Source: Cupriavidus sp. WKF15 (GTDB lineage: Bacteria; Pseudomonadota; Gammaproteobacteria; Burkholderiales; Burkholderiaceae). From it: a DNA stretch of 64,000 nt. The notes beneath the pieces were generated by a model. That model was not told where the DNA came from. It ran no database searches and saw nothing but the letters and a program-made list of their open reading frames with translations. Position numbers and translations under genes: made by a program. The DNA is taken from contig NZ_CP119572.1 of the NCBI RefSeq assembly GCF_029278605.1, forward strand, positions 2,418,001-2,482,000, in the 5' to 3' direction. Positions 28,494 to 41,469 of this stretch are shown piece after piece. The first letter of the stretch is position 1. Each line of letters opens with the position of its first letter.

Positions 28494-28569
28494 GCCGAAG
28501 TAGCTCAGTCGGTAGAGCAGCTCATTCGTAATGAGAAGGTCGGGGGTTCGATTCCTCTCTTCGGCACCA
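28494..28569 (+). tRNA. tRNA-Thr (anticodon CGT)
   Basis: A complete cloverleaf of 76 bases: acceptor GCCGAAG with CTTCGGC, D-arm AGCTCAGTCGGTAGAGC, anticodon loop TTCGTAA giving CGT, T-arm GGGGGTTCGATTCCTC-type, discriminator A and an encoded CCA. A TATTAT -10 with TGCGG lies at 28457-28462. The 3' end contains the 17-bp sequence repeated at 29806-29822, so the gene served as an integration site. Confidence 0.96.
28547..28563 (+). repeat. attL-like direct repeat (tRNA-Thr 3' end)
   Basis: The 17-bp sequence TTCGATTCCTCTCTTCG within the T-arm and acceptor of the tRNA recurs exactly at 29806-29822. Integrases of the tyrosine family commonly use this part of tRNA genes as attB. Confidence 0.8.
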
Positions 28570-28676
28570 TCGCAAAGGGTCTACACTGACCCGAAAGCCA
28601 GTCCTGGCAAGGGTTGCAAGGATTCCGACGCTGTGTGTGGGTACCACTTAGAGTACCTCAGGAGTACCACACGGCT

Positions 28677-29030
28677 ATGGCTATCATCCCCCTCACCGCC
28701 ATCCTGTCAGTCAAGGTCAGATACCTTTGGCTGAAGAGCCCCACGGGTTCGTTCTATTTCAAGCGCAGAATCCCCGAAGACATACAGCCCTACCTTGGCG
28801 GCAAGACGTTCATCCAGGAGTGTCTGCATACCAGAGACCCCAAGGAAGCAGCCAGGAAGAAGCACACACCACCAGGGCAAGGAAGACTGCCACTTTCCCT
28901 TTTAACTACCTGATAGAACACCTAGGCGACAGAGATATCAGGAAGTACCGAAGGGCAGACGCAAACGAATTCGTCAAACACCTGCTCACTGGCGGTCACG
29001 GCAAGAAGCCAATCGCTAGCCTCCCCGTCC
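28677..29030 (+). pseudogene. Broken tyrosine recombinase/integrase fragment
   Basis: An ATG at 28677 opens a frame whose start (VRYLWLKSPTGSFYFKRRIP, then HTRDPKEAARKKH) is the N-terminal domain of phage-type integrases that recognise arm sites. The frame stops at 28913. A stretch in another frame (NYLIEHLGDRDIRKYRRADA, from 28904) looks like the next, SAM-like DNA-binding domain, out of register with the first. The catalytic domain with the R-H-R-Y residues is absent. It lies about 110 bases downstream of the tRNA-Thr, the usual integrase position, so it is a dead remnant of an integrated element. Confidence 0.75.
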
Positions 29031-29098
29031 GACAGTTCCCTCATGCTGGCCTTCTTTGCGAACTTGCCGAATCAGCTAAATTCGTCGTCCCTGTCAGA

Positions 29099-29281
29099 TC
29101 AAGCATCGGCAGCAACGGTCATAGGGCTCTTGGTGGCCGTGGTTGCCCTAGCCCGGTTGACGTTGTACGAGTTGCCCGAGTTATCCGTGCAGGTGTACAT
29201 GTTCTGCGAGCCAAAGCAAGCGGTATTCGCCGACCCGGCAGCCACGCACAGGATGGCGGCTGCAAACGTGATCTTGTTCAT
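29099..29281 (-). CDS. Small secreted phage-like protein, 60 residues
   Basis: The protein begins with a hydrophobic signal-like segment (ITFAAAILCVAAGSANT), followed by a short extracytoplasmic part with CTDNSGNSYNVNR. I have the impression that similar short secreted proteins with a DNSGNSYNV-type motif occur in prophage and accessory regions of Burkholderiaceae; that is recollection, not a search. A purine-rich stretch (gggggga) lies upstream of the ATG. It may be shortened at its 3' end. Function unknown. Confidence 0.5.
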   Translation of the reverse strand: MNKITFAAAILCVAAGSANTACFGSQNMYTCTDNSGNSYNVNRARATTATKSPMTVAADA

Positions 29282-29362
29282 TCCCCCCCGTTCTGTTCAG
29301 AGTTGACCCTACTCGGCCTGCACCGAGCATGAAGATCGTCCACGCCTGAATGGCAAAAGAAA

Positions 29363-29931: not shown

Positions 29932-30600
29932 TCAGCGCGACTTGAACACCGGATGGCGCGCACACGCCGCGAGCACGATGCGCTCGGACTGCGCAAGGTA
30001 GTCCTGAAGCGCGGTAGCAGCCTCGTCGAGCTTTCCCGCCTCGAATAATTGCAGAATGTGCCGGTTCATCTCCACATATGGAGCGTGGAGGAATTCGGGA
30101 TCCTGCAACATGCCGAAGGCCAGGCGCAGCTCTGCCAGCAGGCGCGAGAACATCTCGTTCAAGCGCTCGCTGTCGGCCAGCTCCACGACGGCCATGTGGA
30201 ACTCCATGTTGGCCGTGCCTACGCCCTGCCAGTCGCCCTGGTCGCGGCATTCCGACGCCATATCGACCGCCCTGTGCAGGTGCTTGCCTGCCGGATGCCG
30301 CGGATACGCCTGGCGCAACGCCTGGCACTCGATCAGCCGGCGCACGCGGTAGATATCGATGATGGCCGCGATGCTGGGGATGGCCACCGCAACGCCGCGG
30401 TTGGGCTCATGCTTGAGCAGCCCCTCCTTGGTCAGCAGGCGAAAGATCTCGCGAAGGGTATTGCGAGAAATCTGGAAACTCTCGCTCAACGCCGCTTCCG
30501 ACAAGCGCTGCCCGGGCGCGAACTCGCCATGCACGATCTTCTGGCGAATGAGCTCCGCCACGCGCTCGGTCAGGTTCCTCGTGTCAGCACTCGATGTCAT
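29932..30600 (-). CDS. GntR-family (FCD) transcriptional regulator
   Basis: The 222-residue protein has a GntR winged helix at residues about 8-75 (LTERVAELIRQKIVHGEF, LSEAALSESFQISRNTLREI) and an FCD effector domain. The FCD domain shows IYRVRRLIECQAL, the acidic and histidine motif NMEFHMAVVELADSE and the late NRHILQLFEAGKLDEAA. It is divergent from the MFS-DUF1445-KipIA-carboxylase operon and is the likely local regulator. The candidate operator ATTGTTCAACAAT lies in the shared spacer. Confidence 0.88.
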   Translation of the reverse strand: MTSSADTRNLTERVAELIRQKIVHGEFAPGQRLSEAALSESFQISRNTLREIFRLLTKEGLLKHEPNRGVAVAIPSIAAIIDIYRVRRLIECQALRQAYPRHPAGKHLHRAVDMASECRDQGDWQGVGTANMEFHMAVVELADSERLNEMFSRLLAELRLAFGMLQDPEFLHAPYVEMNRHILQLFEAGKLDEAATALQDYLAQSERIVLAACARHPVFKSR

Positions 30601-30971
30601 CTCTTATGGGGCTCGCATTGGGAGGTGCCGGCCAGACGCCGGGCCGGAAGCGTGGAATGTTAGCGCACTTTGATGACGCAAATGCCCCGCCCTGATGAAC
30701 GGAATGCACCGATTTGGTGACAAGAGGGCATGGCTTGTCTGGCTAGGTGTATACCTTAACTGCCAATACGGTCAAATTGTTCAACAATAATTACGTTCTG
30801 GTTGAGCTATATGTGATTTTTACCCCCACATGGCATGCAGATTGCTAAACCGGACCACATGACTGCAGCGCTGGATCCCGGCACCGCAGGCTGACCCGGA
30901 CATCGTTGCGAAGGCTGGCGCGCAACAACGTCCTCCAACATCCGACGTCTTCCCCGAAGGAGAACGCAACC
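30601..30971. promoter_or_regulatory. Divergent intergenic region between the GntR gene and the MFS operon
   Basis: This 371-base spacer is clearly more AT-rich in 30740-30830 than its surroundings. It holds AGGTGTATACCT (30745-30756) with AGGT/ACCT arms, and the perfect palindrome ATTGTTCAACAAT (30776-30788). A good ribosome site (gaaggaga) lies just before the MFS start. No clear -10 and -35 pair was assigned. Confidence 0.6.
30776..30788. promoter_or_regulatory. Candidate GntR operator (perfect 13-bp palindrome)
   Basis: ATTGTT-C-AACAAT fits the FCD-GntR operator pattern (TNGT...ACNA). It sits between the divergent regulator (start at 30600) and the MFS operon (start at 30972). Confidence 0.6.
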
Positions 30972-32261
30972 ATGTGGCTTAAGGAAACCAACCGGGAGGA
31001 GCGCAGAACGCTCTTCGCCGCATTCGTCGGTTATGGCGTCGATGCCTTCGACTACATGATCTACACGTTCATGATCCCTACCTTCATCCTGGTATGGGGC
31101 ATGACCAAGGCCGAGGCTGGCTACATCGCCACCGGCGCGCTCATCAGTTCCGCGCTCGGCGGATGGCTGGCCGGCATCCTGGCCGACAAGTACGGCCGCG
31201 TCCGGATCCTTCAGCTCACGGTGCTCTGGTTCAGCCTGTTCACGTTCCTGAGCGGATTCACGCAGTCCCCCGAGCAGCTGTTCGTCACGCGCATGCTGCA
31301 GGGGCTGGGGTTCGGCGGTGAATGGTCCGTCGGCTCGGTGCTGATTGCCGAGATGATCCGTGCCCGCCACCGCGGCAAGGCCGTCGGGCTGGTGCAGAGC
31401 AGCTGGGCAGTGGGCTGGGGCATTTCCGCCATTGCCTTCTGGGCGGTCTATGCTCTGTTCGATCAGCAATATGCATGGCGTGTGCTGTTCTGGCTGGGCG
31501 CGGTGCCGGCCCTGTTCATCCTCTACATCCGCCGCAACATCAGCGAGCCCGAGGTGTACCGCGAAACCAAGGCCAGGCTCGCGCGCACGGGGCAGAGCAA
31601 CAGCTTCATGCTGATCTTCAAGCCTGGTGTACTCGGTGTCACGGTGATGGCAAGCCTGCTGGCAACCGGCATGCAAGGGGCCTACTATTCCGTGACGACC
31701 TGGCTGCCCACCTACCTCAAGATGGAGCGCCATCTCTCCGTGCTCAACACCAGCGGCTACCTGATGGTGCTGATTGCCGGCTCTTTTGCGGGCTACCTGA
31801 CCAGCGCGTGGCTTTCCGACCGCCTTGGGCGCCGGCGCTGCTTCATGCTGTTCGCAGTGAGCGCGGCAGTTCTCGTGATCTGCTACACCCAGCTGCCCAT
31901 TACCGATGCGGCCATGCTTGTCCTGGGCTTCCCGCTTGGGTTCTTCCTGTCGGGCATCTTTTCAGGCATGGGGGCCTACCTGACGGAACTGTTCCCCAGC
32001 CACATCCGCGGCTCCGGCCAGGGCTTTTGCTACAACTTCGGACGGGCCGTGGGCGCGGTGTTTCCCGCGATGATCGGGCACATGAGCACGTCGATGCCGC
32101 TCGGTACGGCAATCGGATACCTGGCTGCCGGCGCGTACGGGCTGGTCGTGATCGCCTGCCTGCTGCTGCCGGAAACCCAGGGGCGCGAGCTGACGAACGA
32201 GCCCGAAGCCGCCGATCCGGTGCTCGTGCCCGCCACCCCGGGCCAGGTTCCCGATCGCTGA
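30972..32261 (+). CDS. MFS transporter (metabolite:H+ symporter / sialate-lactate-like family)
   Basis: This 429-residue, 12-helix inner-membrane transporter has the MFS loop motif [11 protein letters not shown] after helix 2, with its second-half counterpart [11 protein letters not shown]. It also has the conserved [13 protein letters not shown] and [20 protein letters not shown], typical of organic-acid:H+ symporters. It is first in an operon with DUF1445, KipI-KipA and biotin carboxylase genes. It therefore probably imports the compound they process, perhaps an organic or amino-acid-derived acid. A strong ribosome site gaaggaga precedes the ATG. The substrate is unknown. Confidence 0.9.
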
Positions 32262-32311
32262 GTCGGGGCTTCAATGCCGACAAGCCTGAATCGCGCCAGC
32301 AAGGAACCCTC

Positions 32312-33130
32312 ATGACAAGCACAAGCAATATGTTCGACGATCTCCGCACCACAGCCGTCGCAGCGGCAAGGGCCGCACGCGCTGCGTATCGTGCCGGCAA
32401 GATCGCTCCCACGGCGGGCGTGGCGCCCGGCATGACGCAGGCCAACATGATCGCGCTGCCGCGCGACTGGGCCTGGGACTTTCTCCTCTATGCCCAGCGC
32501 AATCCCAAGGCTTGCCCGGTGCTCGACGTGATCGAAGCGGGAGCGCACCACACCGTGCTGGCCGATGGCGCCGACATCCGCACCGACATTCCGCTGTACC
32601 GCGTGTGGCGTGACGGCAGGCTCGCTGAAGAAGTCGCCGACGCCACGCCGCTCTGGCAGGAGCATCCCGACCTTGTCACGTTCCTGATCGGCTGCAGCTT
32701 CACGTTCGAGACGCCGTTGCAGGAAGCGGGAATCGAGGTACGCCACATCGCGGACGGCTGCAACGTACCGATGTATCGCACCAATCGCCAATGTCGCCCC
32801 GCGGGGCGCCTGCACGGCGAGATGGTGGTGTCCATGCGGCCCATTCCCGCCGGCCGCGTCGCTGACGCCGCGATGATCTCTGGACGCTTCCCGTCAGTGC
32901 ACGGCGCCCCTGTCCATGTGGGCGACCCCGGCGCGCTGGGCATCGCCGACCTCCACCGCCCCGACTTCGGCGATGCCGTGCGTATCGAGCCGGGCGAGAT
33001 CCCCGTCTTCTGGGCCTGCGGCGTCACCCCGCAGGCTGCCGTGATGGCTTCCGGCGTGCCGTTCGCCGTGACCCACGCCCCCGGCCATATGTTCATCACC
33101 GATGTGCCCGACAGCACCTACCACGTCTGA
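32312..33130 (+). CDS. DUF1445/UPF0317 protein, putative hydro-lyase or D-glutamate cyclase-like (YcsI family)
   Basis: The 272-residue protein matches the YcsI/UPF0317 family. Conserved segments are [56 protein letters not shown] and the C-terminal [15 protein letters not shown] and [11 protein letters not shown]. Mammalian D-glutamate cyclase, which forms 5-oxo-D-proline, contains a related domain. In Bacillus the family member ycsI sits beside kipI and kipA. The ATG at 32312 has aaggaac upstream. The same neighbours here support a role in oxoproline or related lactam metabolism, but the reaction in bacteria is unproven. Confidence 0.87.
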
Positions 33131-33148
33131 TTGCTTCCGGAGCCTGCA

Positions 33149-34810
33149 TTGCGCTTTCTTCCTGTCTCCCTGAATGCGTTGCTGGTGGAGCTGTCCGGCC
33201 TGGACCAGACTCTGGCCCTGCTGACCTCGCTGCAGCGCGATCCCCTGCCAGGCGTGGACGAACTGGTCCCTGCCGCGCGCACGATCCTCGTGCGCTTCCG
33301 GCCCGCTGCCGTGAGTCTGGCGACGCTGGTGCAAGCCATCGCCTCGCGCGACCTGGCAGCGCGCGCCGAGCGCGGCGGCACGCTGGTTGAAATCCCCGTG
33401 CGCTATGACGGCGAGGACCTGGCGGAGGTAGCGCAACGGCTGGGCCTCACACCCGAGGAAGTCGTACGGCGGCACACGGGCAGCGAATACACCGTGGCCT
33501 TCACCGGCTTTGCCCCGGGCTTCGCCTATCTCTCCGGCGGCCACCCCAGTCTCGATGTGCCGCGCCGAAGCACCCCGCGCACGCGCATTCCGGCCGGCGC
33601 CGTGGGTCTGGCCGGCACCTTCAGCGGCGTATATCCGCAGGCCAGCCCGGGCGGCTGGCAGATCATCGGCGTGACGCCGGTGGCCATGTGGGACCTGGGC
33701 CGCGACCAGCCCGCGCTGCTGCAGCCCGGCTACCGCGTGCGTTTTGTCGATATCGCCACGCTGGATGACGAAGCGGAAACGGGCCGCCGGGCAGGCGCCT
33801 CGAATCACGCCATCGCGGCGCCGGGCAACGGCCGCACCCGCGACATGCTGGCCCCGGGGCAAACCGCACTCCAGGTCAGGGCTACCGGCCTGCTGACCGT
33901 ATTCCAGGACCTGGGCCGCCATGGCCAGGCCGGTCAGGGGGTCTCGGCCTCCGGCGCCATGGACCAGGCCGCGCTCAAGGCGGCCAACCGCCTCGTGGGC
34001 AACCCCGGCAACGGCGCGGCGCTCGAAACCGTGGGCGGCGGCCTGCAACTGCAGAGTCTTGGCGAGACCGTGGTCGCCGTCACCGGCGCCGACGCGCCCC
34101 TGACCCTGCGCACGGCGGATGGCCGCCAATGGTGCCCGCCGTCGCACCAGGCCCTGGCCCTGGCCGATGGCGACGTGCTCGGCATCGGCCAGCCCGCTGC
34201 CGGCGCGCGCTGCTATGTGGCCGCGCGCGGCGGCTTTGCCGTCGCGCCCGTGCTCGGCAGCTGTGCCACCGACACCCTGGCCGGCGTGGGTCCCGCGCCG
34301 CTGGCGGTGGGCGATGTGCTGGGCCTGCACCCCGCTCCGGCCAGCGCCGTGGTCGGCGAACCGACCCTGCCCGCCGCGGACCTGCCTACGCTGGAGCAGG
34401 AGGTAGTGCTGGACGTGGTCATGGGCCCCCGCACCGACTGGTTCACGCCGCAGGCCGTGGCCTGCCTGGCCGCGCAGCGCTGGCAGGTGACGCCCCAGTC
34501 CAATCGCGTCGGCCTGCGCCTGGCCGGCGACACGCCGCTGGAGCGCGCCATCGGCGGCGAGCTGCCGAGCGAAGGCACGGCCCTGGGCGCATTGCAGGTG
34601 CCTCCCAGCGGGCAGCCCGTGCTGTTCCTGGCCGACCATCCGCTCACCGGCGGCTACCCCGTGATTGCCACGGTAGCCCCGTATCACCTCGACCGCGCCG
34701 GCCAGATTCCCGTGGGCGCGTGGCTGCGCTTCAATCCGATCCGCGCCTTTGCAGAACTCTCTACGGCTGCCGCCCCGGGCGAGGCCGGCACTTTCCGAGC
34801 ACCCCGATGA
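33149..34810 (+). CDS. KipI-KipA (PxpB-PxpC-like) fusion; carboxyltransferase-type AHS1-AHS2 domains
   Basis: The 553-residue protein fuses a KipI/AHS1 domain (residues 1 to about 210: [48 protein letters not shown]) to a KipA/AHS2 domain (from about 240: [55 protein letters not shown]). In Bacillus and E. coli these are separate 5-oxoprolinase subunits; in urea carboxylase they form the carboxyltransferase. The likely start is TTG at 33149, giving the family N-terminus MRFLPVSL, with ccggag six bases before it; an upstream TTG at 33131 is possible. It overlaps the next gene by four bases (ATGA). Confidence 0.9.
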
Positions 34811-36537
34811 AAAAAGTCCTGATTGCCAACCGCGGCGAGATCGCCGTCCGTGTCATCCGCGCCTGTGCCGACTACGGCGTGCAGTCCGTTGCCGTCTATG
34901 CCAACGCCGACATCGACGCCCTGCACGCGCGCATGGCCGACGAAGCTTACGGGCTGGATGGCGAGCGTCCGGCCGATACCTACCTGAACATTGCCAAGCT
35001 GCTGGAGATCGCCCGCAAGAGCGGTGCCGATGCCGTCCATCCGGGCTATGGCTTCCTGTCGGAGAGCGAGGCCTTTGCCCAGGCCGTGATCGACGCCGGG
35101 CTGCGCTGGATCGGGCCGTCGCCGGCCACCATCGCGAAGCTCGGCAACAAGGTCGAAGCCCGCAAGATCGCGCTGCAGGTAGGCGCCCCGCTGGTGGCCG
35201 GCACGCCCGACCCCGTCAAGGATGCCGACGAGGTACTGGCGTTTGCCGAACAGTACGGCCTGCCCATCATCATCAAGGCCGCGTTTGGCGGCGGCGGCCG
35301 GGGCATGAAGATCGCCTGGCGCATGGATGAAGTCGAGGAGCTCTATCACTCTGCCTCGCGCGAAGCCGTCGCGGCGTTCGGCCGCGGCGAGTGCTTTGTC
35401 GAACAGTTTCTCGACAAGCCGCGACATATCGAGGCCCAGGTGCTGGCCGACGCCCATGGCAACGTGGTGGTGCTCGGCACCCGCGACTGTTCCCTGCAGC
35501 GCCGCAACCAGAAGCTGGTGGAAGAAGCGCCGGCGCCGTTCCTGACCGATGCGCAACGCGAGCGCATCCATGCCTCCGCACGCGACATCTGCGCCGCTGC
35601 CGGCTACACCAGCGCGGGCACCGTGGAATTCCTGCTGAGTGCCGGCGGCGTGATCTCGTTCCTGGAGGTCAACACCCGCCTGCAGGTGGAGCATCCCGTC
35701 ACCGAACAGACCACCGGCATCGACCTCGTGGTCGAGCAGTTGCGCGTGGCCGACGGCCTGCCGCTCACCATCACCAGGACGCCCGCCCCGCTGGGCCACG
35801 CCATCGAGTTCCGCATCAATGCCGAGGACGTGGGCCGCGGCTTCCTGCCCACGCCGGGCCCGGTACAGCGCTTCGATCCCCCGTCCGGCCCGGGCGTGCG
35901 CGTGGACGCCGGCGTGCAGTCGGGTTCCGTCGTGCCGGGCACCTTCGACTCGCTGATGGCCAAGCTCATCGTCACCGGGGTCACGCGCGAACAGGCACTG
36001 ACCCGCGCGCGCCGTGCGTTGCGCGAGTTCCGTATCGAAGGCGTCGCTTCCGTGCTGCCCTTCCACCGCGCCGTGATCGATCACGCCGACTTCGCTGGTG
36101 CGGATGGCTTCAACGTGCACACCCGCTGGATCGAATCCGACTTCGCCGAACCGCTGGCCGCTGCCGCGCGCGCCGAGCCCCAACCCGATGGCAGCCTGCT
36201 GCGCACGGCCATCGAGATCGATGGCCGCCGCGTGGTGCTGGGCCTGCCGGCTCAGCTGCTGGGCGGACTGGCCAATGCGCAGGCGGCAAACCCTGCCGTG
36301 ACGCCGGGGGAGACAGTCGCAGTCGATACCCGCGATGTACCGGCCCCCGTCGCCGGGACCGTGCATGCCTGGAAGGTGGCCGAGGGCGACCAGGTCGAGG
36401 AAGGACAACTGATCGCCGTCATGGAGGCCATGAAGATGGAGATGCAGGTCCACGCGCATCGCGCTGGCCGCATTGCGTTGCGCACGGCCGCGGGCATCTT
36501 CGTGGCGGCGGGGCTGCCGATCGCGACCATCGACTGA
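34807..36537 (+). CDS. Biotin carboxylase fused to a biotin carboxyl carrier domain
   Basis: The 576-residue protein has a complete biotin carboxylase (residues 1 to about 450). It shows [29 protein letters not shown], the ATP-grasp loop [27 protein letters not shown] and [15 protein letters not shown] linker follows, then a C-terminal biotinyl domain with EAMKMEM, in which the middle K is the biotinylation site. There is no carboxyltransferase domain. Translation is coupled to the KipI-KipA gene by an ATGA overlap, so the AHS1-AHS2 protein is the obvious partner. A simple acetyl-CoA carboxylase subunit is unlikely because no accA or accD partner is present. Confidence 0.92.
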
Positions 36538-39586: not shown

Positions 39587-41209
39587 TCAGGTCACGGCGA
39601 TGCGGTCGTCGACGAGGCGGATCTGCCCGCCGGGCTTGTCCTCCATCACCTTGAGCACGCGGTTGCCCACCTGCAGCGTCACGCCGCCGTGGATGCGGCG
39701 GCCGGCGTCGATCACGGCGCCTGCCGCGGGCTGCATCTGCTCCCCGAGCCTGGCGAGCTTCTCCTCGAGCTCGAACAGGTCGCGCGTCGACTTGAACAGC
39801 GTGGCACGCGCCTTCTCGCGCAGGTCGCCGACCGCACGTTCCGGGTTCTTGGCGAAGAACGCTACCAGCTGCTTGACCTTGTTCTGCTCCTCCAGCAGAC
39901 GCCGGCGGTCCGTCTCGAGCGCCGCGCGCTGGGCGTCCGCGTACGGGTTCAGGCCTACCTGCACAATGGTGGCGCTGCCCGCCGGCGCGCCGAACACGGC
40001 CGCTCGCACCGCGAGCAAGGCGCGGCTGCGGCCGCCGCTGATGCTGCCCATGCCGCTGCTTCCGCCCACGACGATGCGCTCGCCCGCGGCCACGTCACTC
40101 TGGCGGATGCCGCTTTCGACGGTAACCTCCGTGCCGGCCTCGACCACCGCGTTCTCGATGAAACGCGCCTGGACCGCGCCCTGGCAGCGCACGCTGGCCC
40201 GGCTGATGGTCCCGGTCGCGTCCGCATGCCCGTGCCCGGTTTCGGCTTTGCCGATGATGCCGCCCTTGACCACGATGCTGCCGCCAGCCTCGATCGTGGC
40301 GGCCTCGATGACGCCATCCACCAGCACATCGCCGGTGACCTTCACCGACATGCCGGTGCGGATGTCGCCCGAGACGCGCAGCGTGCCGTCGAACGCCACA
40401 TTGCCCGAGTGCAGGTCGACGGATTCCACCTGCACCACCGGACTGACCGACGTGCCATGGATGCCCACCACCGGCGAGCCCGCCAGGACTGCGACCAGCA
40501 GGTTCGGATCGTCGGGATCGGCGGCGGCACCGGTCAGGCCTTCGGCGAACGGCGTGTCTTCGACCGGATCGGCAGCCAGTGCCTTGCCAAAGACGTCGAC
40601 GCCGTCGCTGCCGGGCTCGGCCGGGATGCGCCGCATCAGCGGCGTGCCTGGGGTGACCAGCGTCAGGCTGCCCAGTTCGCGCAGGTCCATGGGGGCATCG
40701 TCGTCGGCCTGCGCGGGCTTGCGGGGCTCCAGCAGGTTGACGAAGCGCGCCGGCTGGCCTTGTCGCGGGGCGATGCCCGCCGCGATCTCGCGCAGTTCGC
40801 AGCTGCCTTCCGCCAGCGTGGCTTCCAGCACCAGCGACTGGATCTGGGCCGTCACGCCACGTTCGGCGACGGCACGCCGGATGTCGGCCCCGGTGATCGG
40901 GCGGCCGCCTTCCGGACGCATCAGCGTGAGGCGGACGGCCAGGCGATCGTCGCTGATATCGAGTTCAAACGCGCCATCGATGAGCGCGCCGACCGTGGCA
41001 TCGATCTCGCGATCCGCGCGCTGGCACTGGCTGAGGAATTGCGCAATGGCGCGCGGGTCCAGCCGTGCCTGTTCCCAGCCATGGCTCGCCAGGCACTCCC
41101 GGAGCGCCGTATGGTCCGGAGGCAGCTGGCCCGTCTCGGGCACATAGCGTGCCCGCACCTGCTCGCCTGGCTCGCTGAGCTCCAGGCGCAAACCCGACTC
41201 GTGACTCAT
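39587..41209 (-). CDS. FapA/DUF342-family polymerising protein
   Basis: The 540-residue product has the FapA N-terminal region (SLTLVTPGTPLMRRIPAEPG, DVFGKALAADP). A right-handed beta-helix follows, built from repeats such as GNVAFDGTLRVSGDIRTGM, DGVIEAATIEAGGSIVVKGG and AVVEAGTEVTVESGI. It ends with a long C-terminal coiled-coil-like segment rich in K, E and R (about residues 425-490). In other bacteria DUF342/FapA proteins influence surface attachment, sporulation or signalling. The start MSHESGLRL has gggggactc before it. Function here is unknown. Confidence 0.88.
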   Translation of the reverse strand: MSHESGLRLELSEPGEQVRARYVPETGQLPPDHTALRECLASHGWEQARLDPRAIAQFLSQCQRADREIDATVGALIDGAFELDISDDRLAVRLTLMRPEGGRPITGADIRRAVAERGVTAQIQSLVLEATLAEGSCELREIAAGIAPRQGQPARFVNLLEPRKPAQADDDAPMDLRELGSLTLVTPGTPLMRRIPAEPGSDGVDVFGKALAADPVEDTPFAEGLTGAAADPDDPNLLVAVLAGSPVVGIHGTSVSPVVQVESVDLHSGNVAFDGTLRVSGDIRTGMSVKVTGDVLVDGVIEAATIEAGGSIVVKGGIIGKAETGHGHADATGTISRASVRCQGAVQARFIENAVVEAGTEVTVESGIRQSDVAAGERIVVGGSSGMGSISGGRSRALLAVRAAVFGAPAGSATIVQVGLNPYADAQRAALETDRRRLLEEQNKVKQLVAFFAKNPERAVGDLREKARATLFKSTRDLFELEEKLARLGEQMQPAAGAVIDAGRRIHGGVTLQVGNRVLKVMEDKPGGQIRLVDDRIAVT

Positions 41210-41469
41210 GAGTCCCCCAAGGTTCCCTTTGTGCGGCAGGCCACTCTCTGCCCAACCCGCCAAGGCGCAGTTGAGCAGCCTAGTGCGGCTTCACCCGCAC
41301 CTCCGCTTGTGGTCAATCGATTACCTACGGCAGCTGACAATAAAACTTGAGGCAGGACAAACTCGGACCATGCATAGAAGTACCGGATCACCATGGCAGA
41401 CTGGCGGAGCGTTTTCGGTAAACTATCGGCTTCCGAGGCGCGCCCGCCGCCTCCCGCATTCCCGCAGTC

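Follow-up and report, generated by a model that had tools for sequence, protein, structure and literature searches.

The 64,000-nucleotide stretch of Cupriavidus sp. WKF15 DNA analysed here (the window; contig NZ_CP119572.1, positions 2,418,001 to 2,482,000) contains an operon encoding a KipI-KipA carboxyltransferase fusion (KipIA) and a biotin carboxylase (BC) with its own C-terminal biotinyl, or biotin carboxyl carrier protein (BCCP), domain. With a probability that we put at about 0.6, comparative sequence evidence identifies this operon as encoding the biotin-dependent, ATP-using activating component of a 5-oxoprolinase that obtains its PxpA subunit in trans. BC-BCCP would carboxylate its own biotin with ATP and bicarbonate, the KipI-KipA carboxyltransferase would move the carboxyl group onto the 5-oxoproline amide, and the labile carboxy-lactam would then be hydrolysed by PxpA to glutamate and CO2, with the bicarbonate recycled. 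The PxpA responsible here would be that of a separate, canonical pxpBCA locus, and a PxpR-like GntR regulator would presumably repress the operon until 5-oxoproline is present. The features of the operon, in window positions, are:

29932-30600, minus strand: divergent GntR-FCD regulator (PF00392 and PF07729), PxpR-like by position and operator
30776-30788, unstranded: 13-bp palindromic putative operator ATTGTTCAACAAT, matching the C. glutamicum PxpR site exactly over its core
30972-32261, plus strand: major facilitator superfamily (MFS) transporter (PF07690), with 5-oxoproline uptake a probable function
32312-33130, plus strand: DUF1445/UPF0317 protein (Pfam name D-Glu_cyclase; PF07286, E 2.7e-68; NF003969 above cut-off)
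33131-34810, plus strand: open reading frame (ORF), from TTG 33131, of the KipI-KipA (PxpB-PxpC-like) carboxyltransferase fusion (PF02682 and PF02626; TIGR00370 above cut-off)
34807-36537, plus strand: AccA3-like BC with C-terminal BCCP domain (PF00289, PF02786, PF02785 and PF00364)
36433-36435, plus strand: AAG codon of the Lys predicted to be biotinylated (residue 543, in an EAMKM motif)

The divergent GntR-FCD gene is part of the operon unit, and the operator is followed by the MFS, DUF1445, fusion and BC-BCCP genes in tight packing. The DUF1445 and fusion ORFs abut, with a second TTG, at 33149, located 18 bases further downstream. This is the likelier start of the fusion, given that the database protein (P0001) has 553 amino acids and that the family consensus begins there with MRFLPV. 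The stop codon of the fusion and the start codon of BC-BCCP overlap as ATGA, consistent with the coupling of the two genes proposed in an earlier interpretation of this DNA made from the letters alone (the sequence-only reading); the genes, coordinates and domains given there also agree with the Pfam matches and ORFs. The BC motifs and the EAMKM motif of BC-BCCP are intact, so that biotinylation is predicted, and the BC, biotinyl and carboxyltransferase domains that make up a biotin-dependent carboxylase are all encoded in the operon. For the DUF1445 protein, 2pif and 3db9 are solved relatives.

Related loci were evaluated as the best 80 named of at least 581 confirmed and, by record title, come from Burkholderiales, Pseudomonas, Rhizobiales, Enterobacterales and Actinomycetota. 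The operon type is found across Pseudomonadota and in some Actinomycetota. BC-BCCP directly follows the KipI-KipA fusion in 79 of the 80, which excludes a chance association. The sole exception, in an actinobacterium (L081:4965-7396), has pxpA and KipIA without a nearby BC-BCCP, as if borrowing a shared BC-BCCP like the KipI/KipA pair in PDB 9yx5 described below. A pxpA gene is positioned just upstream in 78 of the loci, the two without it being from C. numazuensis and C. lacunae. Relative to this biotin-type pxp operon (pxpA-[DUF1445]-KipIA-BC-BCCP), the window retains KipIA followed by a dedicated BC-BCCP and has no adjacent pxpA. A GntR relative is encoded upstream in 68/80 loci. A transporter of the Nramp (PxpT/YcsG) type is present in 36 (33 with DUF1445) and a DUF969/979 transporter in 21 (none with DUF1445, 12 with the pyroglutamyl peptidase gene, pcp), so that one or the other is found in 57 loci, and the window MFS gene occupies their place. 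There are MFS transporters in nine loci (eight with DUF1445) and none of these three types in 14 (one with DUF1445, one with pcp). DUF1445, present in 42 loci, and pcp, present in 13, are never found together (0/80; Fisher p 1.7e-5, relatedness not corrected), each being paired with its own transporter type.

In C. glutamicum, the GntR repressor PxpR binds 5-oxoproline (dissociation constant 726 nM), acts on agATTGTTCAACAATct, a site that has been tested by mutation, and controls pxpTABC (PMC13274462). The 13-bp sequence in the GntR-MFS gap of the window has the same core as this operator, and ATTGTTNAACAAT occurs only once in the whole 7.38-Mb genome. The operator was scored in the 69 relatives that have a minus-strand GntR call, leaving 11 unscored, and was located near the GntR gene in 67 of these, perfectly matched in 39 and matched at 10 or 11 of the 12 positions in the other 28, against at most 9 of 12 in control stretches 2 kb away. 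Within the genus, 25 of 26 fusion loci have a perfect operator between the GntR gene and the next gene, including all 12 that have no intact pxpA. As the C. glutamicum system is biotin-free, biotin-free and biotin-type enzymes appear to share one type of regulon.

The KipA tree and solved structures are consistent with the same assignment. The KipA half of the fusion joins KipA chain 3mml (support 99/94), the biotin-type fusion clade has support of 100/99, and this clade together with 3mml, on long branches, is placed on the urea-carboxylase side of a split (88/81) from canonical PxpC and other sequences. PDB 9yx5, judged by its chain names, contains, as chains V and W, KipI and KipA (labelled 'allophanate hydrolase subunits') together with an AccA3 BC-BCCP. 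Proteins of the AccA3 type are also the nearest solved relatives of the window BC-BCCP, with scores of 724 bits for 5mlk (residues 2-574) and 722 for the 9yx5 sequence, followed by 449 for the next. The KipI and KipA proteins of 9yx5 and 3mml are, we assume, mycobacterial, from M. smegmatis. The operator, the pcp and Nramp or DUF969/979 neighbours, the KipA tree and 9yx5 all favour 5-oxoproline as the likely substrate, which the sequence-only reading had put forward as one candidate. Its proposal of a biotin-dependent enzyme formed by KipIA and BC-BCCP and having both urea carboxylase and PxpABC as relatives is likewise supported by the domains, the tree and 9yx5.

Sixty Cupriavidus genomes were inspected, and the fusion loci were picked by eye and confirmed by tblastn. 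Some strains are in both this set and the named relatives (for example, L006/L122 and L007/L123), and the two samples are not independent. The fusion is present in 26 of the 60 genomes, 14 with pxpA in the operon and 12 without an intact pxpA. In L116 and L117, pxpA fragments persist; L119 has lost pxpA, the MFS gene and most of DUF1445; and L115 and L120 have kept GntR-operator-KipIA-BC-BCCP, with a diverged DUF1445 (52% identity) and MFS pair located upstream, outside the operon. On a KipIA+BC tree, the pxpA state requires up to four changes, well-supported branches force at least two of these, and the outgroups have pxpA. With pxpA also adjacent in 78/80 relatives, its absence is a derived, lineage-specific loss within Cupriavidus and not a trait of the system, and we rejected it as the defining feature that the sequence-only reading had made of it. 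Among the sampled genomes, the conserved gene set without pxpA for which a search was suggested there is found only in Cupriavidus.

KipIA and BC-BCCP are under purifying selection after the loss of pxpA, at most slightly relaxed. Median ratios of non-synonymous to synonymous substitution (dN/dS, NG86) in loci without and with pxpA, respectively, are 0.206 and 0.192 for KipIA and 0.121 and 0.095 for BC (66 and 91 pairs), and 0.086 and 0.061 for DUF1445 (36 and 45 pairs), the pairs not being independent. In the loci without pxpA, the values range from 0.13 to 0.35 for KipIA and from 0.04 to 0.20 for BC, low enough to indicate that the enzyme has been kept. In each of the 26 loci, both proteins align over almost the full length of the query. 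There is one stop in the KipIA alignments of L115, L120, L126, L129 and L132, read as the end of the protein given open frames of 546-680 amino acids. Two further Cupriavidus loci, L140 and L141, were left out of the set of 26; they have a third KipI/KipA type (33-41% identity), with KipI and KipA split and pxpA divergent.

Another PxpA is encoded in all 12 genus genomes that lack an intact operon pxpA but also in 13 of the 14 others, so that the 12/12 carries no statistical weight alone. PxpA is encoded in all 60 genus genomes. Only G015 (locus L127) has its sole KipA and its sole PxpA both in an operon of the window type. Across the class (185 genomes, the window's genome counted), all 15 with a stand-alone KipA also have a PxpA match, one of which (G208) holds a stop, and among the 170 without stand-alone KipA there is one (G168) with a weak, broken match. 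Stand-alone KipA was distinguished from urea carboxylase by the length of the open frame, with G178 (668 amino acids) and G107 (783 amino acids) set aside as resembling urea carboxylase. This co-occurrence seems to support a requirement for PxpA somewhere in the genome, with supply in trans.

The genome of the window (7.38 Mb, three contigs) has a single PxpA gene (C1:131068-131766), outside the KipIA operon and with its own pxpB and pxpC. It is part of a pxpB-pxpC-pxpA-DUF969-DUF979-pcp locus beside lipoyl-synthesis genes (L002:7376-12250; G000:C1, about 129.4-134.2 kb; Pfam-checked), so that DUF969/979 and pcp also accompany the canonical system. The genome has two PF02626 genes, neither of urea-carboxylase length, and one DUF1445 gene. 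As the sequence-only reading had noted, there is no pxpA in the window operon and no allophanate hydrolase gene, with none of 16 genome matches above the curated TIGR02713 cut-off. The fusion passes the PxpB equivalog model TIGR00370 (149.4 bits, cut-off 145.55) and falls below the cut-off of the PxpC equivalog NF045499 (164 bits, cut-off 500). The fusion and BC-BCCP, as two chains, score 163.8 and 496.7 bits with the urea carboxylase model TIGR02712, below its cut-off of 1303.85. Hydantoinase A/B domains, of the OplA/CapAB type, are absent from the Pfam matches of the operon. Two Hydantoinase_B genes elsewhere in the genome (C2:1392538-1394136 and C2:1070213-1071952) possibly encode further lactam hydrolases.

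Several observations weigh against a PxpA-dependent 5-oxoprolinase component. The split of the fusion clade from canonical PxpC is moderately supported, and dN/dS is slightly higher in loci without pxpA for both KipIA and BC. An operator is not found near the GntR gene in L018 (6/12, the only GntR call being on a far gene) or L022 (9/12), and L127, the locus with the sole KipA and PxpA of its genome, has no perfect operator. The operator itself is evidence for shared DNA recognition, from which 5-oxoproline can be proposed, by analogy, as the ligand of the window GntR protein. A canonical pxpBCA in the same genome would make a second L-5-oxoprolinase redundant and, in the account of early oxoprolinase work in PMC8453981 that is drawn on here, no bicarbonate requirement was reported.

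The presence of two systems in one genome would be explained if the operon were specialised for 5-oxo-D-proline that is either imported or produced from D-glutamate, with the DUF1445 protein handling D-glutamate or 5-oxo-D-proline and canonical pxpBCA taking the L form. The mutual exclusion of DUF1445 and pcp, which makes the L form, fits this proposal but also tracks transporter type and phylogeny. Moreover, 38/80 loci have no DUF1445, and KipIA+BC-BCCP is retained in 37 of these; most of DUF1445 has been lost from L119, and the only copy in L115 and L120 is the diverged one outside the operon. The mammalian D-glutamate cyclase has DUF1445 and DUF4392 domains and, in the portion of PMC5339696 used here, the activity is not assigned to DUF1445. 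We therefore consider D-form specialisation unlikely, and the D-glutamate cyclisation that the sequence-only reading had ascribed to the DUF1445 protein weak.

A two-protein biotin carboxylase acting, independently of PxpA, on a different amide or lactam, such as urea or guanidine, would have the domain set of urea carboxylase (as in L086), and the operon pxpA has indeed been dispensable in this lineage with the remainder conserved. The 5-oxoproline-type operator, the pcp neighbours and the constant association of stand-alone KipA with PxpA argue against it, as do the missing allophanate hydrolase and the failure of both proteins to reach the urea-carboxylase cut-off, and we regard it as distinctly improbable. 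Specifically as a urea or guanidine carboxylase, the enzyme was rejected on its two chains, the operator and the lack of an allophanate hydrolase above cut-off. The least probable alternative, to which we give little credence, is that an operon redundant with the canonical locus is decaying, pxpA having been lost first with the rest to follow. The series from pxpA fragments (L116, L117) through loci without pxpA to L119, without the MFS gene and most of DUF1445, looks like stepwise erosion, and dN/dS is slightly higher where pxpA is missing. However, KipIA and BC-BCCP are near full length throughout the 26 genus loci, the 12 loci without intact pxpA have all retained the operator, and plain decay was rejected as the dN/dS values reveal purifying selection.

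Elsewhere in the window, positions 28494-29332, upstream of the operon, contain a tRNA-Thr(CGT) gene followed directly by an apparently broken gene with a DUF6538 domain (PF20172), presumably a tyrosine integrase; together they are perhaps the scar of an old integration. At 39587-41263, on the minus strand, there is a gene for a FapA-family protein (PF03961), adjoining a methyltransferase gene.

Paired KipI/KipA-like genes were described as unstudied in 2011 (PMC3199775, section 8). No description of a biotin carboxylase acting with KipI/KipA as a 5-oxoprolinase was found among the literature matches listed, as judged from titles and the beginnings of abstracts, with subscription papers and preprints outside this search. 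Database names for the family include 'allophanate hydrolase', 'KipI family sensor histidine kinase inhibitor', '5-oxoprolinase subunit PxpB' and 'acetyl-CoA carboxylase'. If the operon does encode the activating component of a 5-oxoprolinase, it would represent a class of biotin enzyme with net hydrolysis instead of carboxylation, and the repeated loss of pxpA would be a natural experiment on the roles of the subunits.

The canonical PxpABC systems (E. coli, B. subtilis kip, C. glutamicum pxpTABC) resemble the window operon in PxpB and PxpC domains, GntR regulator and operator, and pcp or transporter neighbours. The Bacillus kip locus presumably also has a DUF1445 gene, as here. In the window, however, PxpB and PxpC are fused, there is a dedicated BC-BCCP and no operon pxpA, and KipA branches apart. 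The KipI/KipA-AccA3 assembly of 9yx5 (KipI/KipA alone in 3mml) similarly combines a KipI/KipA carboxyltransferase with BC-BCCP and, for both parts, ranks among the closest solved relatives, but its KipI and KipA are unfused and its BC-BCCP is the alpha3 subunit of acyl-CoA carboxylase, whereas that of the window is dedicated and encoded in the operon. Urea carboxylase, guanidine carboxylase and urea amidolyase have the same BC, carboxyltransferase (AHS1-AHS2) and BCCP domains and are on the same side of the KipA tree. These enzymes are, however, single chains (as in L086) and, for urea, are accompanied by an allophanate hydrolase; neither applies to the window.

The two-component 5-oxoprolinase of P. 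putida (Seddon, Li and Meister) has, like KipIA and BC-BCCP, a component A of two polypeptides, of 64 and 51 kDa, assembled as a hexamer of dimers whose ATPase activity depends on 5-oxoproline, and a separate 82-kDa component B that is needed for hydrolysis; it has been considered possibly related to PxpABC (PMC8453981). Neither genes nor biotin are reported in the passages of this summary drawn on here. Masses calculated for 13 Pseudomonas loci, which hinge on script-selected start codons, are 61.1-62.1 kDa for BC-BCCP, 56.1-57.6 kDa for KipIA and 26.5-27.4 kDa for PxpA (about 81 kDa as a trimer). BC-BCCP and a trimer of PxpA agree well with the reported values; for the 51-kDa polypeptide, agreement is only fair. 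The KipI-KipA fusion is present in P. capeferrum and P. fulva, which we take to be members of the P. putida group. With odds that we place somewhat short of even, P. putida component A may be BC-BCCP+KipIA, likely as alpha6beta6, and form a labile carboxy-5-oxoproline; PxpA may be component B, which Cupriavidus would have outsourced to its other, biotin-free 5-oxoprolinase locus. Carboxylation of biotin and transfer of the carboxyl group would explain how component A alone spends ATP with 5-oxoproline. Were this correct, biotin would serve a hydrolytic reaction in which CO2 is recycled as an activator, and the operon type would offer candidate genes for the long-purified P. putida enzyme.

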